64,000 nt of DNA from Nesterenkonia lacusekhoensis (GTDB lineage: Bacteria; Actinomycetota; Actinomycetes; Actinomycetales; Micrococcaceae), in the NCBI RefSeq assembly GCF_017876395.1, contig NZ_JAGINX010000001.1:2604001-2668000 (forward strand), read 5' to 3'. Positions 8,700-55,875 of the stretch are shown here, in pieces. The notes beneath the pieces are model-generated. The model made no database searches. It was not told where the DNA came from and worked only from the letters and a program-made list of their open reading frames with translations. Numbering within the stretch: the first letter of the stretch is position 1; each line of letters opens with the position of its first letter. A program made the translations under genes and the position numbers.

Positions 8700-9149
8700 T
8701 CAGTCCTCCACCAGGGAGGCCAGGTGCTCGATCGCGTAGCGGTAGCCCTCGACGCCGGCACCTGCGATCACAGCGGCGGCCACAGGCGAGACATAGGAGT
8801 GCTTCCGGAACTCTTCGCGGGCGTGGACGTTGCTGATGTGGACCTCCACCACCGGGAGCTCCACGGCACGCAGAGCATCGGCGATCGCCACTGAGGTGTG
8901 GGTATAGGCCGCGGGATTGATGACGATCCCCTGGGCGGCCCCGCGGGCTGCCTGGATGGCGTCCACCAGGGCCCCCTCATGGTTGGACTGCATGAAGTCG
9001 ATCTCCAGCCCCAGGCGCTGTCCTGTCTGAGTGCACAGCGTCTCGACGTCGGCGAGGGTGGCGGAGCCGTAGAGTCCGGGCTCCCGGGTGCCCAGGAGGT
9101 TCAGGTTCGGCCCGTTGGCCACCACGATCCGCGACGGACTGTCAGCCAT
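8700..9149 (-). CDS. aroQ: 3-dehydroquinate dehydratase, type II
   Basis: 149 residues, the normal size of the dodecameric type II enzyme. It converts 3-dehydroquinate to 3-dehydroshikimate in the shikimate pathway. Signatures are [16 protein letters not shown] (catalytic Tyr), [25 protein letters not shown] and [18 protein letters not shown] with the conserved His, Asn and Arg. It is alone on the minus strand, converging with the MarP-like gene (93-bp gap), with no other aromatic pathway genes nearby. Confidence 0.96.
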
Positions 9150-9346: not shown

Positions 9347-11335
<1,989 letters not shown>

Positions 11336-11420
11336 GCGCTCCTCCTAGGGGTACTGACGAATGCGTCGGCGCGGAACTGTGCTGCCGATCACAATACAGG
11401 CTTGCGCTGACCTCCTGCGA

Positions 11421-11435
11421 GACGTGTGTCACGTC
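11421..11435. promoter_or_regulatory. 15-bp perfect palindrome in the acs-nth divergent promoter region
   Basis: GACGTG-TGT-CACGTC lies 86 bp upstream of the acs start codon and about 100 bp upstream of nth. It is the right size and place for a dimeric regulator site controlling acs. It does not match the TGTGA-N6-TCACA GlxR consensus well, so the regulator is unknown. Confidence 0.35.
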
Positions 11436-16308: not shown

Positions 16309-17014
16309 GCTGACACAGGGTCTGACCGCAGTCTTGGCCCCGACGCAGGCTTCGCACCTGGTGCCTCCGCTGCTCCCGGCATCGGCAGGGATGCTCGTGG
16401 CCGCGGCTGCTGTGCTGCTGCTCATCCCGCCTGCGGTCCGGCTGAACCCCTCTCGGGGCAGACCTGCAGAGGGCTCGTCTCAGGGGGCTCTCCGAGCAGG
16501 GTTGCTCGGACGCCTGGGCCGCCGTCGCGGTGGGCCGAAAGGGTCGGCTCAGAACGAACCGGTCCAGCGCTGCTCCCAAGCAGTGGATGCGGCAGGGCTG
16601 CTGGACCTCACCGGCGCGCTGCTCTCCTCCGGCGTGGGTATCGAGGCGGCATTGGACCGTTTGGCCGCCTGCGTGCCCGGGGCAGAGCCTCTGGCCCATG
16701 TCCACCGCAGCCTGACCGCCGGGACAGGGTGGGAGACGGCGTGGTCCGGCGTCGGAGAGGATTCGGAGCTGCGGGTCTTCGGAGAGCAGTTGGCCTTCGC
16801 CCATGCCACCGGGGCGCCCACGGTGGAGCTGCTTCAGACCGGGGCGCGGCAGGCTCGGGCGGCGCACCGTCAGCAGGCCGAGCAGCGGGCCGCACGGCTG
16901 GGGGTTCAGATGGTGATCCCGCTGGGCATCTGTTTCCTGCCGGCCTTCGTCCTGCTCGGTGTGGTGCCGGTGGTCCTGGCGCTCGTGCCGGAGTCTCTGG
17001 GGCAGATGGGCTGA
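16301..17014 (+). CDS. tadC: TadC inner-membrane platform protein
   Basis: 237 residues with an N-terminal membrane helix and a second T2SF-like domain ('LLDLTGALLSSGVGIEAALDRLAAC', 'AHRQQAEQRAARLGVQMVIPLGICFLPAFVLLGVVPVVLAL'). It is the last gene of the ssd-tadA-tadB-tadC block. In most relatives the DUF4244 pilin follows directly; here the next pilus genes are on the opposite strand from about 20.6 kb. Confidence 0.85.
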   Translation: MSELTQGLTAVLAPTQASHLVPPLLPASAGMLVAAAAVLLLIPPAVRLNPSRGRPAEGSSQGALRAGLLGRLGRRRGGPKGSAQNEPVQRCSQAVDAAGLLDLTGALLSSGVGIEAALDRLAACVPGAEPLAHVHRSLTAGTGWETAWSGVGEDSELRVFGEQLAFAHATGAPTVELLQTGARQARAAHRQQAEQRAARLGVQMVIPLGICFLPAFVLLGVVPVVLALVPESLGQMG

Positions 17015-17095
17015 GACCCTCAGAGGATTCAGACTCCCAGGAGACGTTGAGGAGTTATCGAGCCAGAGTCTGAGCTGGGTTGCTACGTTCCGTGG

Positions 17096-18220
17096 ATGTC
17101 CTCCCGAGACCACAGACTCGATGCCGCCAAGGGCGTGCTGATCTTCATGGTGGTGCTGGGCCACATCATGGCCGCAGTGTCTCCATGGGATGACGCCTCG
17201 CTGCGGATCTTCCAGACTGCCATCTACGCCTTCCACATGCCGGCCTTCGTCTTCCTCACCGGCGTGACCGCACGTTCCGGGAAGATCCCCCACCGGGTGG
17301 CGTTCCTCCTGGTCCTGCTGGCCACGGCTCTGCCGCTCTACTACGGGTGGATGAGTATGCTCGGCCTGGAGCCCGAGTTCGACTTCCTGGTGCCGTACTG
17401 GATCACCTGGTTCCTGCTCGCGCTGGTGTGGTGGCTTCTGACCGTGCCGCTGATCGAGCGTTTCCCGCGCGCCATGCTCAGCCTGTCACTGGCCGCAGGT
17501 CTCTTCGGCGGTCTCATCCCTGAATACGACTATGAGCTCTCCCTCGCCCGAGCGCTGACGTTCTGGCCGTTCTTCGTCATCGGTAAGCTCTACGGCCGCA
17601 GCATCCTCTCCTGGGCCGGTTCGGGAGGACTGGGCAAGCGGATCGGTCTGCTGGGCGCCGCCATGGTGCCTGTGGGGGTCTTCTACGCCGTCGACGTGGA
17701 GAAGCTCTGGTTCTACGGCAGCCGCGGCTTCGATTTCCTGGACGCCACAGCCGCCGAGGGCTCCGCGCTGCGGGCGATCATCGCGCTCTGTGCCATGCTC
17801 AGCACAGTGGCCGTGCTGGCCTGGATGCCTCGCGGCGCCGGATTCTGGGCCGCAGTCGGCCGGCGCTCGCTGGCCGTCTACCTCCTGCACGGCTTCATGG
17901 TCCGAGCGCTGAACCGCCCCTTGGACGACATCCTGGAAGTCGTGCCCGGTCCTGTGATGGTGATCGTCTGCTTCCTCCTGGCCGGACTGACCACCTGGCT
18001 GTTCGCTCTGCCGGTGTGGGACGAGGGCATCCGCCGCTATGGTGAGGGCGTCATCCGGCTGGCCGCTGCTCCCGTCGTGTGGGTGCGGGCCACCATCCAG
18101 AAGGGCCGTGAGCGTCGCGCCCAGCAGGCTGAGCACGAACGCATCGGGGAGCAGAATCCTGAAGCAGAGAACGCTGCAGAGGACTCTGCAGAGGCGAAGC
18201 CGGCGCTCAGTCGGCGGTGA
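17096..18220 (+). CDS. Acyltransferase 3-like membrane protein
   Basis: 374 residues with about ten hydrophobic helices. The N-terminus 'SSRDHRLDAAKGVLIFMVVLGHIMAAV' carries the Arg-Asp and helix-1 His signature of acyltransferase family 3 (OafA/fucose 4-O-acetylase group), with 'AFHMPAFVFLTGV' next. These enzymes O-acetylate cell-surface sugars or glycolipids using a cytoplasmic acyl donor. The acceptor is unknown. The last ~50 residues are a charged Ala/Glu/Arg tail. Its 3' end overlaps the convergent DUF4031 gene by 14 bp. Confidence 0.8.
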   Translation: MSSRDHRLDAAKGVLIFMVVLGHIMAAVSPWDDASLRIFQTAIYAFHMPAFVFLTGVTARSGKIPHRVAFLLVLLATALPLYYGWMSMLGLEPEFDFLVPYWITWFLLALVWWLLTVPLIERFPRAMLSLSLAAGLFGGLIPEYDYELSLARALTFWPFFVIGKLYGRSILSWAGSGGLGKRIGLLGAAMVPVGVFYAVDVEKLWFYGSRGFDFLDATAAEGSALRAIIALCAMLSTVAVLAWMPRGAGFWAAVGRRSLAVYLLHGFMVRALNRPLDDILEVVPGPVMVIVCFLLAGLTTWLFALPVWDEGIRRYGEGVIRLAAAPVVWVRATIQKGRERRAQQAEHERIGEQNPEAENAAEDSAEAKPALSRR

Positions 18221-21658: not shown

Positions 21659-23167
21659 ATGGCTGATAAACCCTCCGCATCGGTTTCCCGCGTGGCCATC
21701 TACGCTCGCCAGTCGATCCTGGAGGACCAGGGCATCGAGCAGCAGCTGGCCGACTGCCGCAAAGCCGTGGAGGAGCGCGGCTGGAGAGTCTTCGACGAGT
21801 TCATCGACAACAAGGTCTCCGGCTCCAAGGAGCGCGGGGCAGCAACGCAGTGGGCCAAGATGCTCCAGGCCTACGATGACGGCCTCTTCGACGTGCTGAT
21901 GATCGACAGGCCCGACCGGTTCAGCCGCCGGCTGACCGACCTGCTCGATGTCAGGGAGACCCGGGACGTCCGGGTGGTCAGCGCCCGCGGCGGCGTGGAC
22001 ACCGACCACGGCGATGTCCAGCTGGGCATCCAGGTGGTCCTGGCCAAGAACGAGGTCCGCGAGAAGACGATCAGGGCCAAGCGCTACGCCGTCGAGCGCC
22101 ACAAGCAGGGCCACCCCAATGCAGGCGGCGGCCCGCATGGCTACAGATGGGTGCCCGCGGCCAACCGTGATCCGCAGACCCAGGCCCGCTATGAGATCGA
22201 TGAGGATGAGGCTGAAGATGTCAGGTTCATCTTCAGCGAGTTCCTGGCCGATCCCGACAAGCAGGCCTCCATGAAGCAGATCGCCCGAGCTCTCAACGAC
22301 AAAGGCCGACGCACTCGCCGTGGCACGAAGTGGGGAGCATCGACCATCCGGCGCATGCTGATGAACCCCTACTACGCAGGGCTGCTGCCTCCCTCTCGGC
22401 CCTACGACGGCTCCGGCAGCCACCACTACAACAACCTGGATCTGGAGAACTGCATCACCGGGGCATGGGAGCCGATCATCACCGAAGAGCAGCTCCGGGC
22501 CGCCCGCGGCAAGCTCTCGCTGGTCAAACCCAACCACGACGGCACAGCCCGGAAGTGGCTGCTGCCGGGTCTGGCCACCTGCGGCAAGTGTGGCGGTCCG
22601 GTCAGATCATCCATAGGGACGCAACGGGTCCGAGACAAGGCGACCGGCAAGCGCGTCGCCGTCGACGACTATCACGCCTACCGGTGCGCGACCATCGGGA
22701 ACGGATGCTTCCAGCGGGCTGGTGACATCATTGACGAGTTCATCTCCCAGGTGGTCATCGAGCGTCTGGCAACCGCAGACCTGGCGGATCTGCTGGCCAT
22801 CGACGACGGGCCGGACTTCGAGGCACTGTTCGCCAAGCAGAAGGCCTTGGACGGCCGCGAGGGTGAGATCGCGCTGATGATCGCCCGGGGTCAGCTCAAC
22901 CGCGAGGCCGCGGAGCCTGCCCTGGAGGAGATCAGGCAGGAACAGGAGACCGTGAAGAACGAGCTCGCCAGGGCGGTGAAGCAGGACCCTTTGGCAGAGC
23001 TGGCTGGTGTCGACGATGTAGAGGCGTGGTGGAACGCATCGACGCTGGCGAGGCAGCGGGCCATTGTCGGCAAGCTCATGGACGTGGTGATCCACCCGAT
23101 CGGAGGAGGCAGACGGACCACTGCGAAGAACATCGCGGAGACAGTGGAGATCCGCTGGAAGGACTGA
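21659..23167 (+). CDS. Large serine recombinase (integrase)
   Basis: 502 residues. The catalytic resolvase domain starts 'SVSRVAIYARQSILEDQGIEQQLADCRK', with the nucleophilic Ser in ARQS and Arg residues in MIDRPDRFSRR. The Recombinase domain follows (HGYRWVPA... to 'RGTKWGASTIRRMLMNPYYAGLLP'). The zinc ribbon comprises CGKCGGP (about residue 308) and a later CATIGNGC. A coiled coil spans roughly residues 400-440. Length and order match phiC31/TP901-1-type large serine integrases. The start codon is only 44 bp from the crossover site and has no strong ribosome site. It is the enzyme expected to have inserted the element into the pilin gene. Confidence 0.95.
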   Translation: MADKPSASVSRVAIYARQSILEDQGIEQQLADCRKAVEERGWRVFDEFIDNKVSGSKERGAATQWAKMLQAYDDGLFDVLMIDRPDRFSRRLTDLLDVRETRDVRVVSARGGVDTDHGDVQLGIQVVLAKNEVREKTIRAKRYAVERHKQGHPNAGGGPHGYRWVPAANRDPQTQARYEIDEDEAEDVRFIFSEFLADPDKQASMKQIARALNDKGRRTRRGTKWGASTIRRMLMNPYYAGLLPPSRPYDGSGSHHYNNLDLENCITGAWEPIITEEQLRAARGKLSLVKPNHDGTARKWLLPGLATCGKCGGPVRSSIGTQRVRDKATGKRVAVDDYHAYRCATIGNGCFQRAGDIIDEFISQVVIERLATADLADLLAIDDGPDFEALFAKQKALDGREGEIALMIARGQLNREAAEPALEEIRQEQETVKNELARAVKQDPLAELAGVDDVEAWWNASTLARQRAIVGKLMDVVIHPIGGGRRTTAKNIAETVEIRWKD

Positions 23168-23249
23168 CGGCAGAGGCAGGGCCTCGGCCTGAGAACACAT
23201 GGTGAAGATGAGAGTCATGATAGTGACCCCAGACTGCAGCGCCCGCACC

Positions 23250-23582
23250 TGTCGGGTTTTTGTCGGGTGCTGTCGGGTCGCTGTCGGGCGCCTCTGGCGC
23301 ACATCCCGACATGTTTTTCCCTGATATTGCAGGGGAAAGTTCACGTTGTCGGGTTTGTCGGGTGTCCTGAGCAAAACTTTCTATATACCGAGAGAACACC
23401 CCTGGAGCACTACCCCTGCACTTCAACACATTTTTTCTCTGTATACCCCTCTCTAAGACCCGACATACCCGACAGAAGCACTAAAACCCCTGGTCAGAGA
23501 GATATGTCCTGTCGGGTTTTGCCGGTCAGAGCTGTCGGGTTCCGCGCTCCAAGGCCCGACAAACAGGAACCAAAACCCGACA
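23250..23582. repeat. Cluster of 13 TGTCGGG motifs (iteron-like region)
   Basis: Exact TGTCGGG occurs on the plus strand at 23250, 23261, 23271, 23282, 23347, 23356, 23510 and 23533, and its complement CCCGACA at 23305, 23459, 23468, 23555 and 23576. Between the clusters lie AT-rich tracts (TTTCTATATACC at about 23,380 and TTTTTTCTCTGTATA at about 23,430). The whole 648-bp gap 23,168-23,815 has no convincing gene. It looks like a replication origin or a multi-site operator. The two closely spaced head-to-tail groups (9-11 bp apart) are one helical turn apart. Confidence 0.7.
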
Positions 23583-23815
23583 AGTTGCCGCTGGGGGCCG
23601 GCGGCTTCATGCTCCGAAACCCACATCATCCATCACCACCTCCCGGGCATGTGCTCCGAGCGAGGCCGGCAGGCCGAGCGGGACATCAGTCAGGCCAGCT
23701 GAGCACCCATGGGCAGAAGAAGATCCACCTGCCCACCAGGCCTCCCGCCTAGTAGATCACCAGACGCGCGATAGTATTCACACAACGGCCTCGTAGACCA
23801 GGAAGGTACGCACCC

Positions 23816-29205: not shown

Positions 29206-31178
29206 TCAGCTGTTGCGGCGAACCTTCGCGAAGGCCACCACGCCGGAGCCGACGATGACGAGCAGCAGAGCCATCAGGCCCAGGCCCACCGCGCCGGAGG
29301 CACCGGTGGAGGCGAGGTCGTCGCCCGGCTTGCCGCCACCGTCCTCAGTGCCACCGTCCTCAGTGCCACCGTCCTCAGTGCCACCGTCCTCAGTGCCACC
29401 GTCCTCAGTGCCACCGTCCTCAGTGCCACCGTCCTCAGTGCCACCGTCCTCAGTGCCACCGTCCTCAGTGCCACCGTCCTCAGTGCCACCGTCCTCAGTG
29501 CCACCGTCCTCAGTGCCACCGTCCTCAGTGCCACCGTCCTCAGTGCCACCGTCCTCAGTGCCACCGTCCTCACCTCAGTGCCACCGTCCTCAGTGCCACC
29601 GTCCTCAGTGCCACCGTCCTCAGTGCCACCGTCCTCAGTGCCACCGTCCTCAGTGCCACCGTCCTCAGTGCCACCGTCCTCAGTGCCACCGTCCTCAGTG
29701 CCACCGTCCTCAGTGCCACCGTCCTCAGTGCCACCGTCCTCAGTGCCACCGTCCTCAGTGCCACCGTCCTCAGTGCCACCGTCCTCAGTGCCACCGTCCT
29801 CAGTGCCACCGTCCTCAGTGCCACCGTCCTCAGTGCCACCGTCCTCAGTGCCACCGTCCTCAGTGCCACCGTCCTCAGTGCCACCGTCCTCAGTGCCACC
29901 GTCCTCAGTGCCACCGTCCTCAGTGCCACCGTCCTCAGTGCCACCGTCCTCAGTGCCACCGTCCTCAGTGCCACCGTCCTCAGTGCCACCGTCCTCTTCG
30001 GACTCAACCGGGAGCTCATGGTCGTCATCGTCCGTCACCGGATCGCCCTCGCTCGGCGGCGTCCCCTCCACTGTCACGTGGTTCTCGATGATCCCTGCGT
30101 CCGCATCTGCGTCAGTGGCGGTGTATGTTGCCCACGCGCTGACTGACTGTCCCGGCGCAAGGACATGGGGCTCATCCGGCCACTCTCCGTACTCGATCTC
30201 AGAGATTCCCTCCAAGGCATCGGTCAGCTGAACGTCCCGCAGTGTGAGTGCCCCGGTGTTGGTCACGGTGAACTCGTAACGGACATCATCTCCCGCGTGC
30301 CCGGGCCCTCCCTCGACGAACAGACCGTTCTTCTCGACCGAGACGCCCGCACACTGCTTGTCGATCTGACCGATGAGGGCGTTGCGCAGTCGTGCGAAGT
30401 CAACTTCAAGGTAGTCGTCGCCAAACTGCGGTCCACTGACGTGGGGCATGTGCTCGTGAAACAGGCCGTACTCGGACTGCGTCAGGTTGTCGACGACTCC
30501 GACGCCTATGACGCGAGTCCCGGCCTCCTTGACCTGATTGGCGCTGGTCACGGCAGCATCGATCGTGGCCTGATCAGTGGCGTTTCCCAGACCCCTTGGC
30601 GGCAGTCCCCACTGGGTCGGGTTTCCGTCTGTCACGAAGAGCACAGCATCATAGCTCTCACCAGCGCCGCTCAGCGCCTGAAACGCGCGATCCCAGTTCG
30701 TGCCACCCTGCATGGTTCCTGGCCGCTGGATGCCATCCACGTGCTGGCCGATGGTCTCCAGTCCTGCGCCCGAAGTATCGGTGAGACGCAAGGGCTGATT
30801 CGACGCCTGAGAAGTAGCAGGCGCATACGACGCCCAGTTGTGGAACGCCAGCCGAACCGGATACTCCTCCAAGGACTCCGCGAAGTCCACGAGGCCAGAA
30901 CGCAGCATGTCGAGCTGCTGGTTGTCGATGGAGTTCGACACATCGATGCTGACCGCCACGTCCAGCTCACACTGGTCCGTCAAGGCCGGGTTCGGAGCGG
31001 GCGGCACCGTGGACTCGACAGCGGAAGCCGACGTCGCCACAGTCAGTGTCGCGCCGACTGCCAAGCACAGAGCCCCTCCGAGCGCGACGGCTCTGCGTAC
31101 GGCTCGGGGGGTTCTTCGTCGGGCCCTGTCCCGCTCCGCAGGTGCGGGCGTTGACTGCGAGTGCTCCTTCGGTGTCAC
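29206..31178 (-). pseudogene. VWA-domain surface adhesin with EDGGT repeats and LASTG anchor, frameshifted
   Basis: GTG start at 31178 with GAGGAG upstream. Signal peptide with twin Arg-rich n-region, cleaved after SASA. VWA domain from 'CELDVAVSIDVSNSIDNQQ' (MIDAS DxSxS) to 'LFVTDGNPTQWG'. DUF11-like domain '[42 protein letters not shown]'. About 43 EDGGT pentapeptide repeats. Tail [11 protein letters not shown], a membrane helix and a basic end (KVRRNS). LASTG fits the LAxTG signal of class E sortases. A 5-bp CCTCA insertion at about 29,571 shifts the frame two-thirds along the repeats, so translation reads RTVAL repeats and stops at 29,274 without the anchor. Confidence 0.85.
29335..29996. 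repeat. Tandem array of a 15-bp unit
   Basis: Unit GTCCTCAGTGCCACC (plus strand), about 43 copies, nearly identical, encoding EDGGT on the minus strand. One irregular unit, GTCCTCACCTCAGTG at about 29,566-29,580, contains an extra CCTCA. Copies are about 15 to the left of it and about 28 to the right. Confidence 0.97.
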
Positions 31179-31645
31179 ATCATCTCCTCGGTATAGGTGT
31201 GAAGGGTCGGACATACTATTATGGACCTCCGGTTCCAGGGACTGTGGCAGGCATTGACCCTCGATCGTGGACACGGTGTCGGTTGGGCTATGCCGCTTCA
31301 GCAAGGATAGGTTAAGGGCGGGACTGCCGCACATTTAGGTGACAGTTGGGGGTGTCAGGCCGCGAGGCTCACGGCCGGGTTCATGATGGTCTCGTATTCG
31401 ATGGGGGTCAATCGGCCCAGACGGGTCTGTCGGCGGCGTCGGTGATACGTCCTTTCGATCCAGGTGATGATTGCGATTCGGAGCTCTTCTCGGGTCTGCC
31501 AACGCTTACGGTCCAGGACGTTCTTCTGTAGCAGCGCGAAGAAGGACTCCATGGCGGCGTTATCGCCGGCAGCACCGACCTGGCCCATGGATCCGATGAG
31601 GTGGTGACGGTTCAGGGCGTGCACGAACTTCCGTGACCGGAACTG

Positions 31646-44875: not shown

Positions 44876-45316
44876 TCACCGGCCGAGACCTCGGCTCTGT
44901 GCAGTCTCACGGGAGCGATCCGCCTGCTTGGCGAACAGCTCACGGGAGGAGGGCTGACGCTCCTGCTCCTGGGACTGCTCCTCTCGCTCTGATGCCTCCC
45001 GGGAGTCACGCTCAGCCTGCTCGGTCTCGCGGGCGTCCATCTCGGCAGCCTCACGCTCTGCGATCTCCTGCTCACGCTGCTGCTCCTCGCGGGCCTCCTG
45101 GGCCAGCCGCTCCTGCTCTGCGGCCTCACGCTGAGCAGCTTCCTGCTCCTGATCCTGGAGCTGACGCTCCTGGTCGCGCTCTTGCTGGCGCTGCTGCTCG
45201 TTGAGCTGCTCCATCAGCCGGTGCTGCTCGGCCTGAGACTTCACGTTGCGAGAGAACTCCGCATCGCCCTGCTGCTGGCGCATCCGCTGCTGAAGCGGGG
45301 TTTCGGTCTGTGCCAC
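44876..45316 (-). CDS. Gln/Glu/Arg-rich coiled-coil protein
   Basis: 146 residues, almost all one predicted coiled coil ('EQLNEQQRQQERDQERQLQDQEQEAAQREAAEQERLAQEAREEQQREQEIAEREAAEMDARE'). Similar low-complexity runs occur in the relaxase C-terminal region, so it may be a relaxosome helper (inference from location only). Confidence 0.55.
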   Translation of the reverse strand: MAQTETPLQQRMRQQQGDAEFSRNVKSQAEQHRLMEQLNEQQRQQERDQERQLQDQEQEAAQREAAEQERLAQEAREEQQREQEIAEREAAEMDARETEQAERDSREASEREEQSQEQERQPSSRELFAKQADRSRETAQSRGLGR

Positions 45317-49135: not shown

Positions 49136-49340
49136 AGTTATCTCCAAACGGTCTGCGCTTGCCGGCCCTGATCCGGTGCTCGCCATGAACCAGTCGCTTG
49201 AGGCTCTCCACCTCGCGCTCCAGCTCCCTGATCCGATCCGCATCGGTCTTCGGCCTGGCTTGGATCTCCTCCTTCCCCGGGCCGATCCCGTGCTTCACGT
49301 ACAGCCGGCGCTTCGTCTCGGCACTCATCGCCATGCTCAT
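49104..49340 (-). pseudogene. Small gene after the relaxase, 3' end replaced by ISL3
   Basis: Starts at the ATG overlapping the relaxase stop (TGATG at 49,340). 'MSMAMSAETKRRLYVKHGIGPGKEEIQARPKTDADRIRELEREVESLKRLVHGEH' has a short coiled coil. At 49,135 the frame enters the IS end repeat and closes with LFVIEGVDQ. The original C-terminus is lost. Confidence 0.7.
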
Positions 49341-51511
49341 CACCTCTCCAGCCCACGAGACTCACGCTCGGAGCTCTTCTGCAGTGAGGACTCCTTGGCG
49401 ACCAGCCTCTGGCGAGCCTGCTGATACGCCTCCCTGCTGCGCTCGGGGCTCTGCTCACGAGCCCGATCCTCGGCCGCACGCTGCTTGCCCAGCACGTCGG
49501 CACCGACCTTGTGCTCGGATGCCTTCGCACTGTCGTAGCTGGGGACGTAGCCGGCATCGCGTGGCCGCAGATCCGCCTGCAGGGCGTAGACCTGCTTACC
49601 TTCGGCCTCAGTGCGGTTGTCCCCGGCCAGCCGTTGCAGCTTCTGGTACTTCTCCGCTGAGAGCTTCGCCCGCACCGCCTTGCCGTCCTTAGCGATCAGA
49701 TGCAGACCGCGCTGACCCTTCGCTACCGGATCGTCGTGGCGCAGCTGGTAGTCCACGTTCGCTGAGCCATCCTCGAGCTCAGTCGCCACAGCCAGCACCT
49801 CTCGGTCCCTGAGATCCCAGCCCTTGAGAGCGCGGAGACCCTCCTCCTGGCCGGGCTCCCGGGACATGGGAACTGTGGCCTGCTCCACCGGCTCCGGCGC
49901 CGTGCGCTCGGCGTCGCGCTCCTTGAGCTTGGACCACTTGCTGTCCCCGGCCTGAGGCCGCTCCGCCTCGACAGCATCCACGCGAGGCTCTTCAGCCTCA
50001 GCCTGCGGGACCTGCGGCGTCTCAACCTCGGGAGTCTCCGGCTCCTTCGGAGCCTTCGCCATCAGGCTGTCGAACCACTGCCGGCTCTCTCGGTCCCACT
50101 CGGCCTGCCGGGCACGGAACTCTTCGAGCTCCTTGGCCTCACGCTCGGCAGCCTCAGCAGCCGATTGGCGAAGCTCCTGCCGCTCGCGCTCTGCTCTCTG
50201 GGTCGGAGACTCCTCAATGGCAGGCTCGGCCGGCGTCTCCACCACAGGAGTCTCTGCCAGCGTCGGCGCCGGCTTACGCTCCTTGGCCCACTGCTGGAGC
50301 ATCCGCTCAGCCTCACGCTGAGCCTCCTCGCCGATACGCTCCATGGCCCGCTGGTGCTCGGCGGCGGGCCAACTGACCGGCTTCGCCTGAGCCAGCTCAC
50401 GGTTGCGCTCGAGGGCAGCCTCCACGTCTTCGACTCTGTAGCCCTCGCCCAGGCGTGATCCCTTGCGACGATGAGCGTTGGCCGGCTCCTGGATGACGCC
50501 GTCCTCGTCGGCCAGCATCATCCCGAAGCTCACGTCGTGAGAGCGCTTGGTGTACTTGGAGATCGTCACACCGCGTTCGCGCCCGACCTGATCCAGCCTC
50601 TGCCAGTCGGTCGCACGCTGGTCGGCGAGCGTCTCGCGCACGCGACCCTTCAGCTCAATCTCGCTGAACCTCTCCTTCGGGCCCGGGGCTCCGATGTCTG
50701 CCGCTGCATCTCGGGTCTGCTCATTCAGCTGATAACGCTCGAACTCTCGCTGCAGCCGGTCCTGCTGCTTCTGCCGCGGCGTCGGCGCATCATCGGTCCG
50801 CTCCAGCTTCACCTGCTTCTCCGCGGCCTCGATCCTCTTCCGCAGCTGGTTCGGGCTCAGATCCTTCTCAGCGTTGTCGACGACCTGCTGCCGAGCCTCG
50901 GCCATCCGCTCCTCAGCCTGCCGGGTGAGTTCGCGCATATCCTCACGCTGCTCGACGCCGAGCTCCTCCAGCACCTTGTCATGGGTGATCGAGAGCCTGG
51001 AGTGAGTCACAGCGTCCGAGCGCAGCGACCTTCCCGTCTCAGGATGCACGGCACCGATGATGATGTGGTTGTGGACGCAGCCGGTCCTGCCGTTGACCTC
51101 GGTGGCGATCAGCGCGGGACGGCCATCGCCGATCCTCTCCGCCAGAGCCCGGCCTCGCCGCTGAGCTTCCTCCCACGACGCCGGATCATCCGGATCCAGC
51201 TCGTCGAGACCGAAGCTCTGCACAATCGGATATGCCTGCACGTACTCCGACTCGTACATGATCTGGCCGCGGTCGTCCCGAGCCAGCACAGGCTCACCGT
51301 TCTCGTCGCGAACCTTCTTCCCCGCCTCGTCGAGCACGTGCATCGGCCGGACGCCATCTTTGCCGTGCGCAGCGCGGATCTCTCCGAGTCGCTTCTCGAA
51401 CATGATGGGGTTCGACGGGGCATTGACCGCCGAGATTGCCACGGCGTCCTTGCCCGCGTAGTTAGCCGAGGCACCCGAGCGCCTCGTGGACTGTGCGGTG
51501 ACGGTAGCCAT
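49340..51511 (-). CDS. MobA/VirD2-like relaxase
   Basis: 723 residues. N-terminal relaxase domain: candidate catalytic Tyr in 'SGASANYAGKDAVA' (about residue 18) and the metal-binding histidine motif in 'LIATEVNGRTGCVHNHIIIGAVHPETG' (H-N-H). This would nick oriT and pilot single-stranded DNA. From about residue 190 the protein is charged and helical, with Glu/Arg/Gln-rich coiled coils, and a C-terminal domain has 'GWDLRDREVLAVATELEDGSANVDYQLRHDDPVAKGQRGLHLIAKDGKAVRAKLSAEKYQKLQRLAG'. The first base is shared with the MobC-like stop. The exact MOB class is uncertain. Confidence 0.83.
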   Translation of the reverse strand: MATVTAQSTRRSGASANYAGKDAVAISAVNAPSNPIMFEKRLGEIRAAHGKDGVRPMHVLDEAGKKVRDENGEPVLARDDRGQIMYESEYVQAYPIVQSFGLDELDPDDPASWEEAQRRGRALAERIGDGRPALIATEVNGRTGCVHNHIIIGAVHPETGRSLRSDAVTHSRLSITHDKVLEELGVEQREDMRELTRQAEERMAEARQQVVDNAEKDLSPNQLRKRIEAAEKQVKLERTDDAPTPRQKQQDRLQREFERYQLNEQTRDAAADIGAPGPKERFSEIELKGRVRETLADQRATDWQRLDQVGRERGVTISKYTKRSHDVSFGMMLADEDGVIQEPANAHRRKGSRLGEGYRVEDVEAALERNRELAQAKPVSWPAAEHQRAMERIGEEAQREAERMLQQWAKERKPAPTLAETPVVETPAEPAIEESPTQRAERERQELRQSAAEAAEREAKELEEFRARQAEWDRESRQWFDSLMAKAPKEPETPEVETPQVPQAEAEEPRVDAVEAERPQAGDSKWSKLKERDAERTAPEPVEQATVPMSREPGQEEGLRALKGWDLRDREVLAVATELEDGSANVDYQLRHDDPVAKGQRGLHLIAKDGKAVRAKLSAEKYQKLQRLAGDNRTEAEGKQVYALQADLRPRDAGYVPSYDSAKASEHKVGADVLGKQRAAEDRAREQSPERSREAYQQARQRLVAKESSLQKSSERESRGLER

Positions 51512-51978
51512 CAGGCTGCCCGCTCAGACTCGACGAACTCGATCAGGAGCTCCTCCATGCGGAGGATGGCTTCCTTGGACTCCTTCACGTCTCGAGCAGC
51601 CTCAGCGACCTGCTGCTTGGTGACAGCATCGCCGAAGTTCAGCTTCTTCATGATCGTGTACAGCGATCCCTGCGAGTGGCTGGTGCGGTTGCGGCAGTCG
51701 GTCAGCGACTCCCACACCTCATCCGGTACAGCCACTGTGGCCGCCCCAGCCGTCGCCAGAGCTTCCGGCTGGCCGGCCATGACGCGCGCAGCCTTCTCGT
51801 TCTCCACGAGCAGGATGCGCACTGCTTCAGTCCAGTCGACATCGTCGAACGCCACGCCGCGAACATCAGCCAGGGCCTGACGCATCGCGGCGACAGCCTT
51901 CTCCTCATCGACACCAAGACGGAGGTTGCGATGCCGGCCATACTTCGTCGGCTTACGCCGCTGAGCCTGTGCCGCCAT
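51511..51978 (-). CDS. MobC-like mobilisation accessory protein
   Basis: 155 residues. The basic start 'AQRRKPTKYGRHRNLRLGVDEEKAVAAMRQAL' and C-terminal helices 'GDAVTKQQVAEAARDVKESKEAILRMEELLIEFVESE' fit an accessory relaxosome protein. The middle 'SQGSLYTIMKKLNFGDAVTKQQVAE' resembles an HTH. It directly precedes the relaxase (TGATG overlap), the usual MobC position. Recognition comes from position and composition rather than a clear signature. Confidence 0.65.
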   Translation of the reverse strand: MAAQAQRRKPTKYGRHRNLRLGVDEEKAVAAMRQALADVRGVAFDDVDWTEAVRILLVENEKAARVMAGQPEALATAGAATVAVPDEVWESLTDCRNRTSHSQGSLYTIMKKLNFGDAVTKQQVAEAARDVKESKEAILRMEELLIEFVESERAA

Positions 51979-52425
51979 AGCAACCTCCTCCCTGCTTGTT
52001 CACATCGTGCGCATCGTCTAACTGGTCTCTACCAGTTTACTATGCCGCCACGCTGCTGAACAAGCAGATGTTTCGCCCAGATTCTCCGCCGCCTGGCACA
52101 GAATCTGGGCGAAACGAACCCGAGGACCAGTTCCACCCGTAGTACAAATAAGGCTCGCTTCGCTCGCCTCCCCGGCCTGCGGCCGGAGTACGGGTGCTGG
52201 TCCATCCGCCTGCGTCGGCCTTCGGCCTCCTCCGGCTCGGGGGATAAATCCCAGCTCCAGGCCCATGCAGCGCCTGCGCCCTTCGGGCTCCGGCGTGCAG
52301 TGGGCCTTCCGCTATGCGCGCTGCAGCAGTGCCGCATCGCTTGAGGCAATGGCGCCCGCTCCACGGGCTTGGCACCCTCCGAACCTCGCCTGTTCGGCGT
52401 CGTTTCGGCCGGCGAGGGCGCAGGA
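51979..52425. other. Hairpin-rich non-coding region upstream of mobC (oriT candidate)
   Basis: No convincing gene. It contains several short hairpins with TTCG-type loops: GCTCGCTTCGCTCGC (about 52,153), GGCCTGCGGCC (about 52,172), GGCCTTCGGCC (about 52,213) and GCGCCCTTCGGGC (about 52,272). Placement right before mobC-relaxase and clustered inverted repeats make it the likeliest oriT location. Confidence 0.45.
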
Positions 52426-52672
52426 TCACGACTTTGTCGAGATTCTGCATGGATCTTGTAGTAATCCTGTAGACGCCCGAAGCGCTGTTGCATCTCTGCA
52501 CAGATGTTGTCGAGATCCTGCAGTATCTCTGCAGCCGCTCGGAGCCGTTGCACGGATCGTGCGCGGATCTTGTCGTAATTCTGCAGCGATCCTGTCGTCA
52601 GACTGTCGTGCTGCGATCCTGTCGAATCTCTGTCGTGATCTTGCATGGATCTTGCACAGATCCTGCTTCACC
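52426..52672. repeat. Array of degenerate 11-bp repeats (iteron-like)
   Basis: On the minus strand, units of the form [G/A]CA[A/G]GATCNNN follow at 11-base steps, for example GCAGGATCTGT, GCAAGATCCAT, GCAAGATCACG, ACAGAGATTCG, ACAGGATCGCA, then GCAGAATTACG, ACAAGATCCGC, GCACGATCCGT, and later ACAGGATTACT, ACAAGATCCAT, GCAGAATCTCG. About 18 recognisable units with a few irregular spacings. The 11-bp step, about one helical turn, argues for protein binding on one DNA face. Frames read through it are not credible proteins. Confidence 0.75.
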
Positions 52673-52683
52673 CCAGGCATGAA

Positions 52684-52724
52684 GAAACCCCGCCGGGATC
52701 TCCGCGATCCGCGACGGGGCTCTT
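52684..52724 (-). terminator. Terminator for the 53.1-52.7 kb gene
   Basis: On the minus strand AGCCCCGTCGCGGATC, loop GCGGA, GATCCCGGCGGGGTTT: about 13 pairs with two mismatches, then TTTCTTC. It separates the gene ending at 52,741 from the repeat array. Confidence 0.8.
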
Positions 52725-52740
52725 CCCGACGAGCTTCGCC

Positions 52741-53097
52741 TCAGGCGGCGTGAGGCTTCGGGTGACGGCTGGCCTCGTAGACCTTGACCATCTCCTCGAA
52801 CTTCTCGGCCAGCTGCTCGATCCGCTTGGACTCGTCGCGGTCGGTATTGACCATCACGATGTTGCCCTCCTCATCACGCAGCGGCTCCTTGGTCTCCTTG
52901 TCCCGACGCTCGACCTTCACCGGCTCGATGCTGAAGTACTCGTAGAGCATCTCGACGAACTCTGCGCGGGTGCGGCCGGCGTCCTTCACGGCCTTGTCGA
53001 TGGCGGCGTCGTAAGCCTGCTTGGCCTCCTCCGCCTCCTTGAGCTGACGAGCGATCTCCTCTGCGCGTGCCTTGGGGTTGAACTTGGTGGTAGCCAC
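52741..53097 (-). CDS. Hypothetical charged helical protein
   Basis: 118 residues: 'FNPKARAEEIARQLKEAEEAKQAYDAAIDKAVKDAGRTRAEFVEMLYEYFSIEPVKVERRDKETKEPLRDEEGNIVMVNTDRDESKRIEQLAEKFEEMVKVYEAS'. Helices flank a short beta segment. No family recognised. It lies after the primase and Zn-ribbon genes on the same strand and next to the 11-bp repeats, so a DNA-binding replication accessory role is possible. Confidence 0.6.
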   Translation of the reverse strand: MATTKFNPKARAEEIARQLKEAEEAKQAYDAAIDKAVKDAGRTRAEFVEMLYEYFSIEPVKVERRDKETKEPLRDEEGNIVMVNTDRDESKRIEQLAEKFEEMVKVYEASRHPKPHAA

Positions 53098-53172: not shown

Positions 53173-53499
53173 CTACGCCGGAGCGGGTTCGTGGTCGCGG
53201 TCGCGGCACACAGAGCACTTCGTGAACAGAAAGCCCCTGCCGCTCTCCACGTTGAAGTCGGTTACCTCCAGCGTGATGAACTTGCACTCTTCGCAGTTGC
53301 TCTCACGCCACTTCCGCCGCTCCTCGCAGTCGCCATCGCAACCGGTACTTCCGCAGGTGGGGCAGGGGCGGTGCATCATGTCCTCGACGTACCAGCACGT
53401 CCGACACCGGCCCTTCCCGTCGTTGAAGTCCTCGGGAATCTCGCGGCCGCACGAACGAACGCACTTGCTCTTCTCGGTGGTCTCGATGTTCACAGTCAT
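53173..53499 (-). CDS. Cysteine-rich zinc-ribbon protein
   Basis: 108 residues from the ATG at 53499 (AGAAGGAAG upstream). Four Cys clusters: C-x3-C (CVRSC), C-x2-C (CRTC), C-x2-C with C-x3-C (CPTCGSTGCDGDC), C-x2-C (CEEC), and a final CSVC. This fits two or three zinc ribbons. Function unknown. Downstream of the primase gene. Confidence 0.65.
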   Translation of the reverse strand: MTVNIETTEKSKCVRSCGREIPEDFNDGKGRCRTCWYVEDMMHRPCPTCGSTGCDGDCEERRKWRESNCEECKFITLEVTDFNVESGRGFLFTKCSVCRDRDHEPAPA

Positions 53500-53618
53500 C
53501 ACTTCCTTCTGGGGGTCTATGTCTCGTGGTCGGCGGGTGACTCCCGCGCTCGCCATTCGGGGGACCTCAGGTGGTGGATGGGCTGAGGGCTGGCGCGGGT
53601 GGCCGCGACCAGCTCGCC

Positions 53619-55544
53619 TCAGTCCTCCGCATCATCAGAAGCCGCAGCACCATCACGGATCAGCGCCCCGTAGTACTCCCGCTTCAGGACTGGCGCGCAC
53701 TTCTTGTTCAGGTCTGCCGAGCCCTTCGCCTTCGGATTCATCCAGCCTTCGAGGCTGAACTCGTGGATCAGGTGCTCCGGGGCTGCCATCCGCTTGCCCG
53801 GTCGCACTGCGCCAGTCTTGAACTTCCAGCCCTCAGCCTCAGCAGCATCGACGATCCGGTTCTTGAACTCCGTCTTGTTGACCACCGTGCCCGAGGGGTT
53901 CGACTGCCCGAACCAAGCCTTGTAGAGGTCGTAGAGGAAGGCGATCGGCAGCATGTCCCAGACGAACCGGTCCTTCAGCTCGTGCCAGAACTCCACGACC
54001 GGGTTGTTCTCCTGCTTGAACCGAGCCATGACCTCCTGGCACGCCGGCGGATTGGAGAACTCTGTGTGGGTCATCTCCAGGCAGCGCCGCAGTACGTACT
54101 GGAGCACGTCAGGCCGGGTGAGGTAGTCCTGCTTGATGGCCTTGTTCTCCACGCCCGTGAAGGACTTGTTGAACGGCACGAACAGCTGGCGCCGCGTCAG
54201 CGAGGCCGACTTGTCACTCGACTTCGGCAGGTCGTTCAGGCACTGGATCATCACGCCCTCGAACCTCGCGTTGTAAGGGTCCTTGTGCTTGCGCTCCAGG
54301 GTGAAGACATCGCCGGTGATGACCGACTTGAAGACATCCAGCTCCCGGGAGAACACCCCGACGGGGTTCTCATCGGTGATGATCGCGTCGGCGTGCATCA
54401 GCGGCGTCAGAGCGAATGGCTTGTCGAACCTGCTGATCGGCAGGCTCGCGTAGCCCTTCTCGCCCTTCAGGTTCCGGGCCACCTGGCAGTAGGTGCCCTT
54501 TCCGTTCCGCCCCTTCGGCGAGTAGGGCATCAGCGCCTGGTCGTACCTCACGCCTGGACGCATCACAGCCGAGAGGCCTTCCCACAGCAGCTGGGGGATG
54601 CCCTCATCATCCGACAGGGACTCGATCCAGGAGTCGAAGTCCCAGGTGGTGCCGTCGGGCTGAGTGATGACCGGGCTCTGAGCGTCAGCGACGTAGTCCA
54701 CCGGCGACTTCGTGAGGAACACGAACTCGGGGCTGAAGTCCAGCAGCTCCTGCTTCTGGTGGTCGAAGATCCCGTTGTTCACCGGGATATAGCGGGCCGC
54801 ACGGGTCCGCTGCGTCAGGGGAGCGAGATCACGCAGACGCTCCATCGCCGAGTCTGGCTGCCTGCCGCTGAGGCCCGGGTTCAGGCTGGTCAGCTTCGAA
54901 CGGATCTGCCCTTCGTCCGTGACGTACAGGCCGGACGCAGCGTTGTAGATCGCCAGCGGTGCAGTGTGATGCTCACCCTGCCCAGCGAGGTCGATCTTGA
55001 TGATGGTCTCCATCTTCATCAGGATCCTCGCTGTCATCGCCTCGTCGAGGTTCTCGATGGGCTTCAGCTTCGGCATCCTGGCGCCGGCCTTCCGGAGGGC
55101 CTCATCTATAGTCAGCTTCCTCTGCCCCCCGTCGTAAGTGGTCTCGTAATCGGGCCACGTACCACCGGCAAGCATCAGCAAGTCGTACTTCATGTCGAAT
55201 GAGTCCCTGCGGCGGTTCTCGAGGACGATGCCATTGTTGACCTTGTGGAGCATCCGCAGGCCAGCCTGCTTGAGCACGCTGTGGCCCGCACGACGAGCGT
55301 CCTCCATCTCCGCAGCAAAGTCCTCAGAGGCAAGCTGCTTCTCGATGGTCAGGTGTGCGACCTCATGAAGCGGGATGCGACGGAGGAAAAAGTCATCGCC
55401 TCCCTCATCCTCAGCGCTGGCGTCAACAGGCGTTGACGACCCCTCATGAGAATCGTTAGCATTAGCAGTAACAGCCGACCAGCTGGAAGATTCTTCAGGA
55501 GCCCCGTCGTTGCCCGCGGCGGGGTTTTCTATTGCCTCAGACAC
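53619..55544 (-). CDS. P4-type primase/helicase replication protein
   Basis: 641 residues from the GTG at 55544 (an in-frame GTG 12 bp upstream is possible), overlapping the stop of the HTH gene by 8 bp. Acidic disordered N-terminus (~50 residues), then a D5_N-like region, then a superfamily 3 helicase core: Walker A SPKGRNGKGTY (about residues 342-352) and Walker B 'ADAIITDENPV'. 'FTLERKHKDPYNARFEGVMIQCLNDLPKSSDKSASLTRRQLFVPFNKSFTG' carries motif C Asn and the sensor Arg, as in phage/plasmid D5 primases. It would unwind the element's origin after excision. Confidence 0.88.
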   Translation of the reverse strand: MSEAIENPAAGNDGAPEESSSWSAVTANANDSHEGSSTPVDASAEDEGGDDFFLRRIPLHEVAHLTIEKQLASEDFAAEMEDARRAGHSVLKQAGLRMLHKVNNGIVLENRRRDSFDMKYDLLMLAGGTWPDYETTYDGGQRKLTIDEALRKAGARMPKLKPIENLDEAMTARILMKMETIIKIDLAGQGEHHTAPLAIYNAASGLYVTDEGQIRSKLTSLNPGLSGRQPDSAMERLRDLAPLTQRTRAARYIPVNNGIFDHQKQELLDFSPEFVFLTKSPVDYVADAQSPVITQPDGTTWDFDSWIESLSDDEGIPQLLWEGLSAVMRPGVRYDQALMPYSPKGRNGKGTYCQVARNLKGEKGYASLPISRFDKPFALTPLMHADAIITDENPVGVFSRELDVFKSVITGDVFTLERKHKDPYNARFEGVMIQCLNDLPKSSDKSASLTRRQLFVPFNKSFTGVENKAIKQDYLTRPDVLQYVLRRCLEMTHTEFSNPPACQEVMARFKQENNPVVEFWHELKDRFVWDMLPIAFLYDLYKAWFGQSNPSGTVVNKTEFKNRIVDAAEAEGWKFKTGAVRPGKRMAAPEHLIHEFSLEGWMNPKAKGSADLNKKCAPVLKREYYGALIRDGAAASDDAED

Positions 55545-55875
55545 GGGCCTCACCACCAGAGAGGGCAGTGACGGCCGGTTGCAGGATCGACGCCAGCTCC
55601 TCGCGCTTTGCGTCGGTCATCTTCGGCGCCTTGGCGACGATCTTCCTGGCGGCAGCCTTCAGATCCGCATACTCACGAGCTTCACGCTCGTTCGCCGGGA
55701 TGACCCGCTCCAGGCCGAAGACATGGTCGAGGTCCTCGATTCGGTACTTATTCTTGCCGCCGTCGGACCAGTCGCGGAAGACGGGAAGCTCGCCGGAGGC
55801 GGCCCGGCGGTTGATAGTCGCAGTGCTGCGACCGGTGTGCTTGCAAGCACCCTTCAAATCAACGTACTTAGACAC
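55537..55875 (-). CDS. HTH DNA-binding protein upstream of the primase
   Basis: 112 residues: 'YVDLKGACKHTGRSTATINRRAASGELPVFRDWSDGGKNKYRIEDLDHVFG' is an excisionase/MerR-like HTH. The C-terminal half is a charged helix. Being first in the replication operon, it may regulate it or act as origin-binding or directionality factor. Confidence 0.78.
   Translation of the reverse strand: MSKYVDLKGACKHTGRSTATINRRAASGELPVFRDWSDGGKNKYRIEDLDHVFGLERVIPANEREAREYADLKAAARKIVAKAPKMTDAKREELASILQPAVTALSGGEARV

Follow-up and report, generated by a model that had tools for sequence, protein, structure and literature searches.

Degenerate 11-bp repeats between the replication and mobilization genes of a Nesterenkonia mobilizable element: a possible orphan centromere-like site

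Results

An 11-bp array in four blocks

In the window analysed here, a stretch of 64,000 nucleotides of Nesterenkonia lacusekhoensis DNA, an array of degenerate 11-bp repeats belongs to a mobilizable element that encodes a P4/D5-type primase, a relaxase and a MobC-like protein. We give a probability of about 0.5 to the reading that the array is an orphan centromere-like site, used for partition or stability of the small element. This reading is favored because an adaptor protein that binds side by side fits the pitch, the division into blocks and the free core, as well as the partition genes that accompany similar arrays. The array is called orphan because no dedicated partition NTPase or ParR gene adjoins it.

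Between positions 52429 and 52668 we identified 17 clear units on the same strand, plus one or two weak ones, so the approximately 18 degenerate 11-bp repeats that a sequence-only reading had reported at 52426-52672 are real. The consensus proposed in that reading, [G/A]CA[A/G]GATCNNN, is right as a sequence, but it lies on the minus strand, where the unit is approximately CTGCARGATCN (CTGCAggATCN from an unbiased motif search). Each pitch consists of an 8-bp conserved core and 3 freer positions. A strict search with [AG]CA[AG]GATCNNN recovers 15 units, and the unbiased motif search gives 21 matches in the array (19 minus-strand and 2 plus-strand), with 14 of the 20 steps between matches being a multiple of 11.

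The clear units form four minus-strand blocks of 4, 3, 5 and 5, with an exact 11-bp pitch inside each. Block D (52429..52472) has the four units CTACAGGATTA, CTACAAGATCC, ATGCAGAATCT and CGACAAAGTCG; block C (52502..52534) has three, CTGCAGAGATA, CTGCAGGATCT and CGACAACATCT; block B (52543..52597) has five, CGACAGGATCG, CTGCAGAATTA, CGACAAGATCC, GCGCACGATCC and GTGCAACGGCT; and block A (52614..52668) also has five, AAGCAGGATCT, GTGCAAGATCC, ATGCAAGATCA, CGACAGAGATT and CGACAGGATCG. All were delimited by the motif search, and block A also by strict units. The last-to-first steps between blocks are 40, 19 and 27 bp, and helical phase is therefore preserved inside blocks only. Thus, the earlier description of 11-base steps across about 250 bp, with the units on one face of the helix, holds inside each block but neither between blocks nor as one uniform run.

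The periodicity is strong by several measures. Over 52401-52700 the lag-11 self-match is 0.43, versus 0.25 in dinucleotide-preserving shuffles (z 7.2), and lag 22 reaches z 4.4. With lags 11, 22 and 33 summed, period 11 gives z 9.0 and is top of 14 periods, the others from 7 to 20 all being ≤1.6. The autocorrelation for an 11-bp period that had been proposed as a check thus stands at z 7-9 above dinucleotide shuffles. When the entire window was scanned, the top lag-11 stretch began at 52426. For the full 762-bp gap between the gene for a 118-aa protein and mobC, which was picked blind to the signal, the period-11 z is 8.0, a value reached by 0 of 100 shuffles. As controls, 20 chromosome stretches, each of 20 kb, were taken from five genomes of the same family; their lag-11 z peaks at 3.8, versus 7.5 at the array.

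An 84-aa minus-strand open reading frame (52426-52680) crosses the array and has no Pfam match. Since lag 33 (z 2.1) falls far below lag 11, the array does not encode a protein repeat, in agreement with the earlier argument. To judge from the sequence, the earlier picture of non-coding, protein-binding-type DNA between the replication and mobilization operons of a mobile element appears sound. We found no adjacent pair of array units elsewhere in the genome, and Rfam gave sub-threshold matches only.

The host element

Reading along the minus strand, the element encodes a weak HTH_17/excisionase-like protein of 112 aa (55537..55875; E 0.0033, below the cut-off), a P4-family primase-helicase (53619..55556; TIGR01613, E 2e-48, with DUF5906 and Pox_D5), a 127-aa protein (53173..53556), and, as the last gene of the replication operon, the 118-aa helical protein (52741..53097). 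The array follows, and then come the MobC-like protein (155 aa; 51511..51978; 52% identity to its homologue in locus L005) and a MobA/VirD2-type relaxase (49340..51511; PF03432, E 4.6e-11). A strong terminator-like RNA hairpin directly after the replication operon (52684..52730; z -3.2) separates that operon from the array; it has no T run, and a consensus terminator search of it was negative.

About 450 bp separate the array from the start of mobC. Upstream of mobC and apart from the array is an inverted repeat with 21-nt arms and a 4-nt loop (52070..52115; DNA fold z -7.1), and next to it, on the minus strand, a motif, GGCGAGCGAAGCGAGCCTTATTTGTACTAC (52139..52168), that in an alignment by eye resembles the sequence upstream of mobC in L005 (GAGCCGAAGGCGAGGTTATTTGTCATAC). 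Taken together, the hairpin and motif, 270-350 bp from the array, are a candidate oriT.

The element is sporadic. This MobC was found in 1 of 245 genomes of the family, the source genome itself, and the 118-aa protein in 3 of 98. The closest relaxase and MobC (approximately 53% and 52% identity) are those of genome G027 (locus L005), where the replication genes differ from those of the window element and no array occupies the gap upstream of mobC. Homologues or analogues of the 118-aa protein precede mobC in L003/L005, L054, L039 and L016. A DNA search found no plasmid record covering the element, MobC and the 118-aa protein had no plasmid matches, and single-sequence scans of genome and viral contigs for relatives returned nothing. 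The window element has no ParA, ParM or ParR gene, and no actin-like gene (ALP_N) was found in the genome. As a test for hijacking inside the genome, the 48-kb second contig was searched; neither an 11-bp array nor a ParR or actin-like gene was present.

Arrays and partition genes in related loci

A search with the primase alignment gave 45 genome loci and 7 viral loci, of which 50 were usable and were scanned blind. The lag-11 z is above 5 in 15 of these and above 6 in 8, versus 0 of 20 controls, and no other non-codon lag behaves like lag 11 across the loci. In 20 of the 50, loci of prophage type, we identified a ParR-like gene; its product, exemplified by RWSVPRADESTNRWLDEQYDISRSLQLLIRESIQRDGY in L032, has a ribbon-helix-helix pattern. 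An actin-like protein was seen beside it in 19 cases, and the twentieth locus ends first. Evidence for the actin-like annotation includes a PF17989 (ALP_N) match in L073 (E 9e-6) and the motifs IDVGNGYVK and VDVGEGT.

The 11-bp signal is associated with these partition genes. For 18 of the 20 loci with a ParR-like gene, the highest lag-11 value of the whole 20-kb locus is close to the 5' end of parR, where the control lags 8, 10, 13 and 14 place theirs in only 0-3 of 20. These 20 loci also have higher lag-11 z scores than the remaining 30 (Mann-Whitney p 4e-6; Fisher p 9e-4 at z > 4.5), the 20 including many close relatives (Arthrobacter, Streptomyces) and so not being 20 independent events. 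In two loci with no ParR, an array is next to a ParA gene: in L061 a period-11 array (z 4.6) abuts the gene (PF01656), and in L044 the array abuts it weakly (whole gap z 2.8, rank 3) and a ribbon-helix-helix-like gene then follows. The array cores are group specific (AGACC/GGTCT, GAGAC/GTCTC, TGACA, TGGCCA, CARGATC) on a constant 11-bp pitch, as expected for an adaptor and site that co-evolve. The link of the window array to partition would run by analogy through the prophage loci, the core sequences of which differ from its own.

The order of array, mobC and relaxase, with no partition genes, recurs in two other genera. L016, from another genus of the family, encodes an HTH protein, a primase, small genes and a 104-aa protein, followed by a hairpin, the array, MobC and the relaxase; the 11-bp units of its array are of TGGCCA type and occur on both strands, and the unselected gap gives z 5.6. 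The blind scan picked out L060 (Nocardioides speluncae), with z 8.7 for the unselected gap; its mob genes were noticed only afterwards. There the array is about 460 bp upstream of MobC-like and relaxase-like genes, which were named by sequence pattern, Pfam giving no match. A third case, L054 (Rothia), was not counted: its z of 4.6 comes from a segment chosen post hoc, and over the whole gap z is 2.8 (rank 4). Three further loci, L039, L005 and L065, have mob genes with no array upstream of mobC, and the array is therefore not essential to the mob module.

The 13.65-kb contig L006 encodes a homologue of the 118-aa protein and an integrase and has an array of TTGCATCA(G/A)GA units. It also encodes a 310-aa protein (10490-11422, minus strand) with four tandem HTH_17 (MerR/excisionase-type) domains. 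In the Brevibacterium primase-relaxase element L065, a GGCCA-core array with an 11-bp pitch (16950-17430) lies beside an XRE-type regulator; the core is the same as that of L016 but is placed elsewhere. A motif, AGCGAAACTGTATACAC, is common to two genera just upstream of mobC (L016 12353-12370 and L039 14494-14511) and is probably the oriT core of this relaxase family.

MobC as candidate binder

We infer from its sequence and position that MobC is the favored binder of the array. Two features make it the best candidate: in three genera its gene comes after the array, and its N-terminus has a ribbon-helix-helix-like pattern (the strand HRNLRL, then two helices). The fold itself is assigned with low confidence, from this pattern and from a poor structure model predicted without relatives (pLDDT 50). 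A second prediction without relatives, of the 118-aa protein, was also poor (pLDDT 60). MobC has no significant Pfam match, its profile did not match the ParR-like family in hhalign, and no credible match came from searching solved structures with the profiles of MobC and of the ParR-like family.

Discussion

A proposed role for the array

If the array is a centromere-like site, a small DNA-binding protein, most likely of the ribbon-helix-helix type, would bind each 11-bp unit side by side in blocks of 3-5, and the bound units would build a nucleoprotein segment. This segment could tether or distribute the extrachromosomal form before and after conjugation, and it may also tune the neighboring mob operon. 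The site might work without a motor, as StbA does on the R388 stbDRs, with MobC the favored binder, or the adaptor might be borrowed from a co-resident plasmid or phage. Tentatively, and as a rather long shot, relaxosome and segrosome may have merged in some actinobacterial mobilizable elements, with MobC coating an orphan 11-bp centromere beside oriT in one complex for inheritance and transfer, or else a plasmid or phage in the same cell may supply a partition system that the orphan centromere parasitizes.

A close parallel is R388, in which two sets, each of five 9-bp repeats (TTGCATCAT) with two-nucleotide spacers, adjoin oriT. StbA bound to these stbDRs ensures stability, StbB not being needed, and maintenance is independent of the neighboring ATPase (PMC3098194). 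Our period-11 test gives z 9.4 on the stbDR stretch. The likeness to the window array includes the 11-bp pitch that results from the 9-bp repeat and 2-bp spacer, the sets of five, the position near oriT or oriT-like features and mob genes, and a TGCA-type core common to both units. The stbDR shares 8 of 9 bases with the L006 unit, which may be convergence. Unlike R388, the window array has four blocks rather than two and is in an actinobacterium with a P4-type primase, with no stb operon beside it. No counterpart of StbA was recognised in the window element by eye comparison with the 118-aa protein and MobC; StbA itself has no Pfam match.

The parC of plasmid R1 has two sets of five repeats to which ParR binds, with two repeats in a 22-bp probe (PMC4949242). 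The array resembles parC in its degenerate repeats, 11-bp pitch and blocks, but ParMRC systems have an adjacent ParR adaptor and an actin-like ParM gene, both missing here. Among actinobacterial prophages, AlpA of Corynebacterium glutamicum CGP3 binds 24 alpS repeats upstream of alpAC (PMC4446434), and our related loci carry parC-parR-alp modules of this ParR/actin-like kind at the same 11-bp pitch. SGI1 is reported to stabilize itself by hijacking the parABS of its IncC helper (PMC10954446). SGI1 is likewise a mobilizable element using a partition system that is not fully self-encoded; the helper system there is parABS, whereas the window site is an 11-bp array with no known partner. By analogy the array seems to behave like a parC or stbDR site, yet we file it as neither a ParMRC system, a StbA system nor an oriT.

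More broadly, the results reveal a recurring non-coding signature, an 11-bp pitch with a free core, that in many actinobacterial mobile elements is tied to partition sites, and point to elements that keep a "centromere" without a motor. A single array with a few small proteins makes directly testable the question of how small integrative and mobilizable elements persist through cell division in the excised state. The pitch test also offers a route to such sites where sequence similarity fails.

Alternative explanations

The array could instead be an origin of replication (oriV), with iterons recognized by the P4/D5-type primase-helicase or by a small protein of the replication operon. P4-type replicons have iteron origins, and here too a repeat array is beside, and directly follows, a P4-family primase operon. 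All of the surveyed arrays came from a primase search, so some link to the replication module is conceivable. One locus, L040 (Collinsella), has a short TGGAACAAAAC array in 11-bp steps just upstream of its P4-type primase gene (8900-9010), possibly a true replication iteron. However, iterons do not occur wherever the primase family does: L039, L047, L052, L058 and others carry this family with no 11-bp array within 10 kb. Similar arrays adjoin partition genes in about 18-20 related elements, and in the related prophages the array is at parR, about 8 kb from the primase. We regard the primase loci with no array and these distant parR arrays as the strongest points against an origin. L006 adds an array and a 118-aa homologue with no recognizable primase. 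Because the arrays are missing from some primase relatives and track partition genes, an origin of replication, suggested in the sequence-only reading by the location, is unlikely and is not favored.

Somewhat less plausible is an operator or relaxosome accessory array, at which MobC (or the HTH protein) would repress the mob operon or aid nicking at oriT, with no role in segregation. The position upstream of mobC and the relaxase gene agrees with this, as does the candidate oriT hairpin about 310 bp from the array. MobC-type proteins of other plasmids act as autoregulators of their own operon, as is reported for RA3 MobC (PMC4175270). Yet 17-20 units over 240 bp far exceed the usual operator, about 450 bp separates them from the mobC start, and no array is present upstream of mobC in L039, L005 and L065.

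An origin of transfer, the other function that had been proposed for this location, is likewise not favored. The oriT-like features lie outside the array (52070-52168), relatives with similar mob genes are array free, and the array itself has no nic region or inverted repeat, its units being direct repeats (19 of 21 on the same strand). Lastly, a functionless remnant or chance repeat, such as a slippage product or decayed sequence, would suit the presence of MobC in a single genome but is very improbable, given that period 11 is held across blocks despite divergence to a self-match of about 48%, something that slippage would not preserve, and that the same pitch occurs in the same place in other genera (L016, L060).

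Other features of the window

We noted three further repeat-rich or fragmentary regions in the window. A second, different iteron-like cluster is at 23249-23590, where the octamer TGTCGGGT occurs in ten exact copies, on both strands, in 340 bp; shuffles predict 2.5 in the whole 64 kb. The cluster directly follows a serine recombinase gene (21659-23167) and resembles a control or attachment region belonging to another integrated element. At 44876-45316 (minus strand) is a 146-aa glutamate/glutamine-rich open reading frame with a tail (QADRSRETAQSRGLGR) similar to the relaxase C-terminus; taken with ISL3 fragments at 48.0-49.1 kb, it could be a remnant of another mob gene. In the gene at 29274-31334 (minus strand), which encodes a cell-surface-like protein, a 15-bp repeat (EDGGT) recurs about 44 times. 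The repeat frame slips to RTVAL, so that the tail is read in another frame, possibly indicating a phase-variable locus or an assembly slip.
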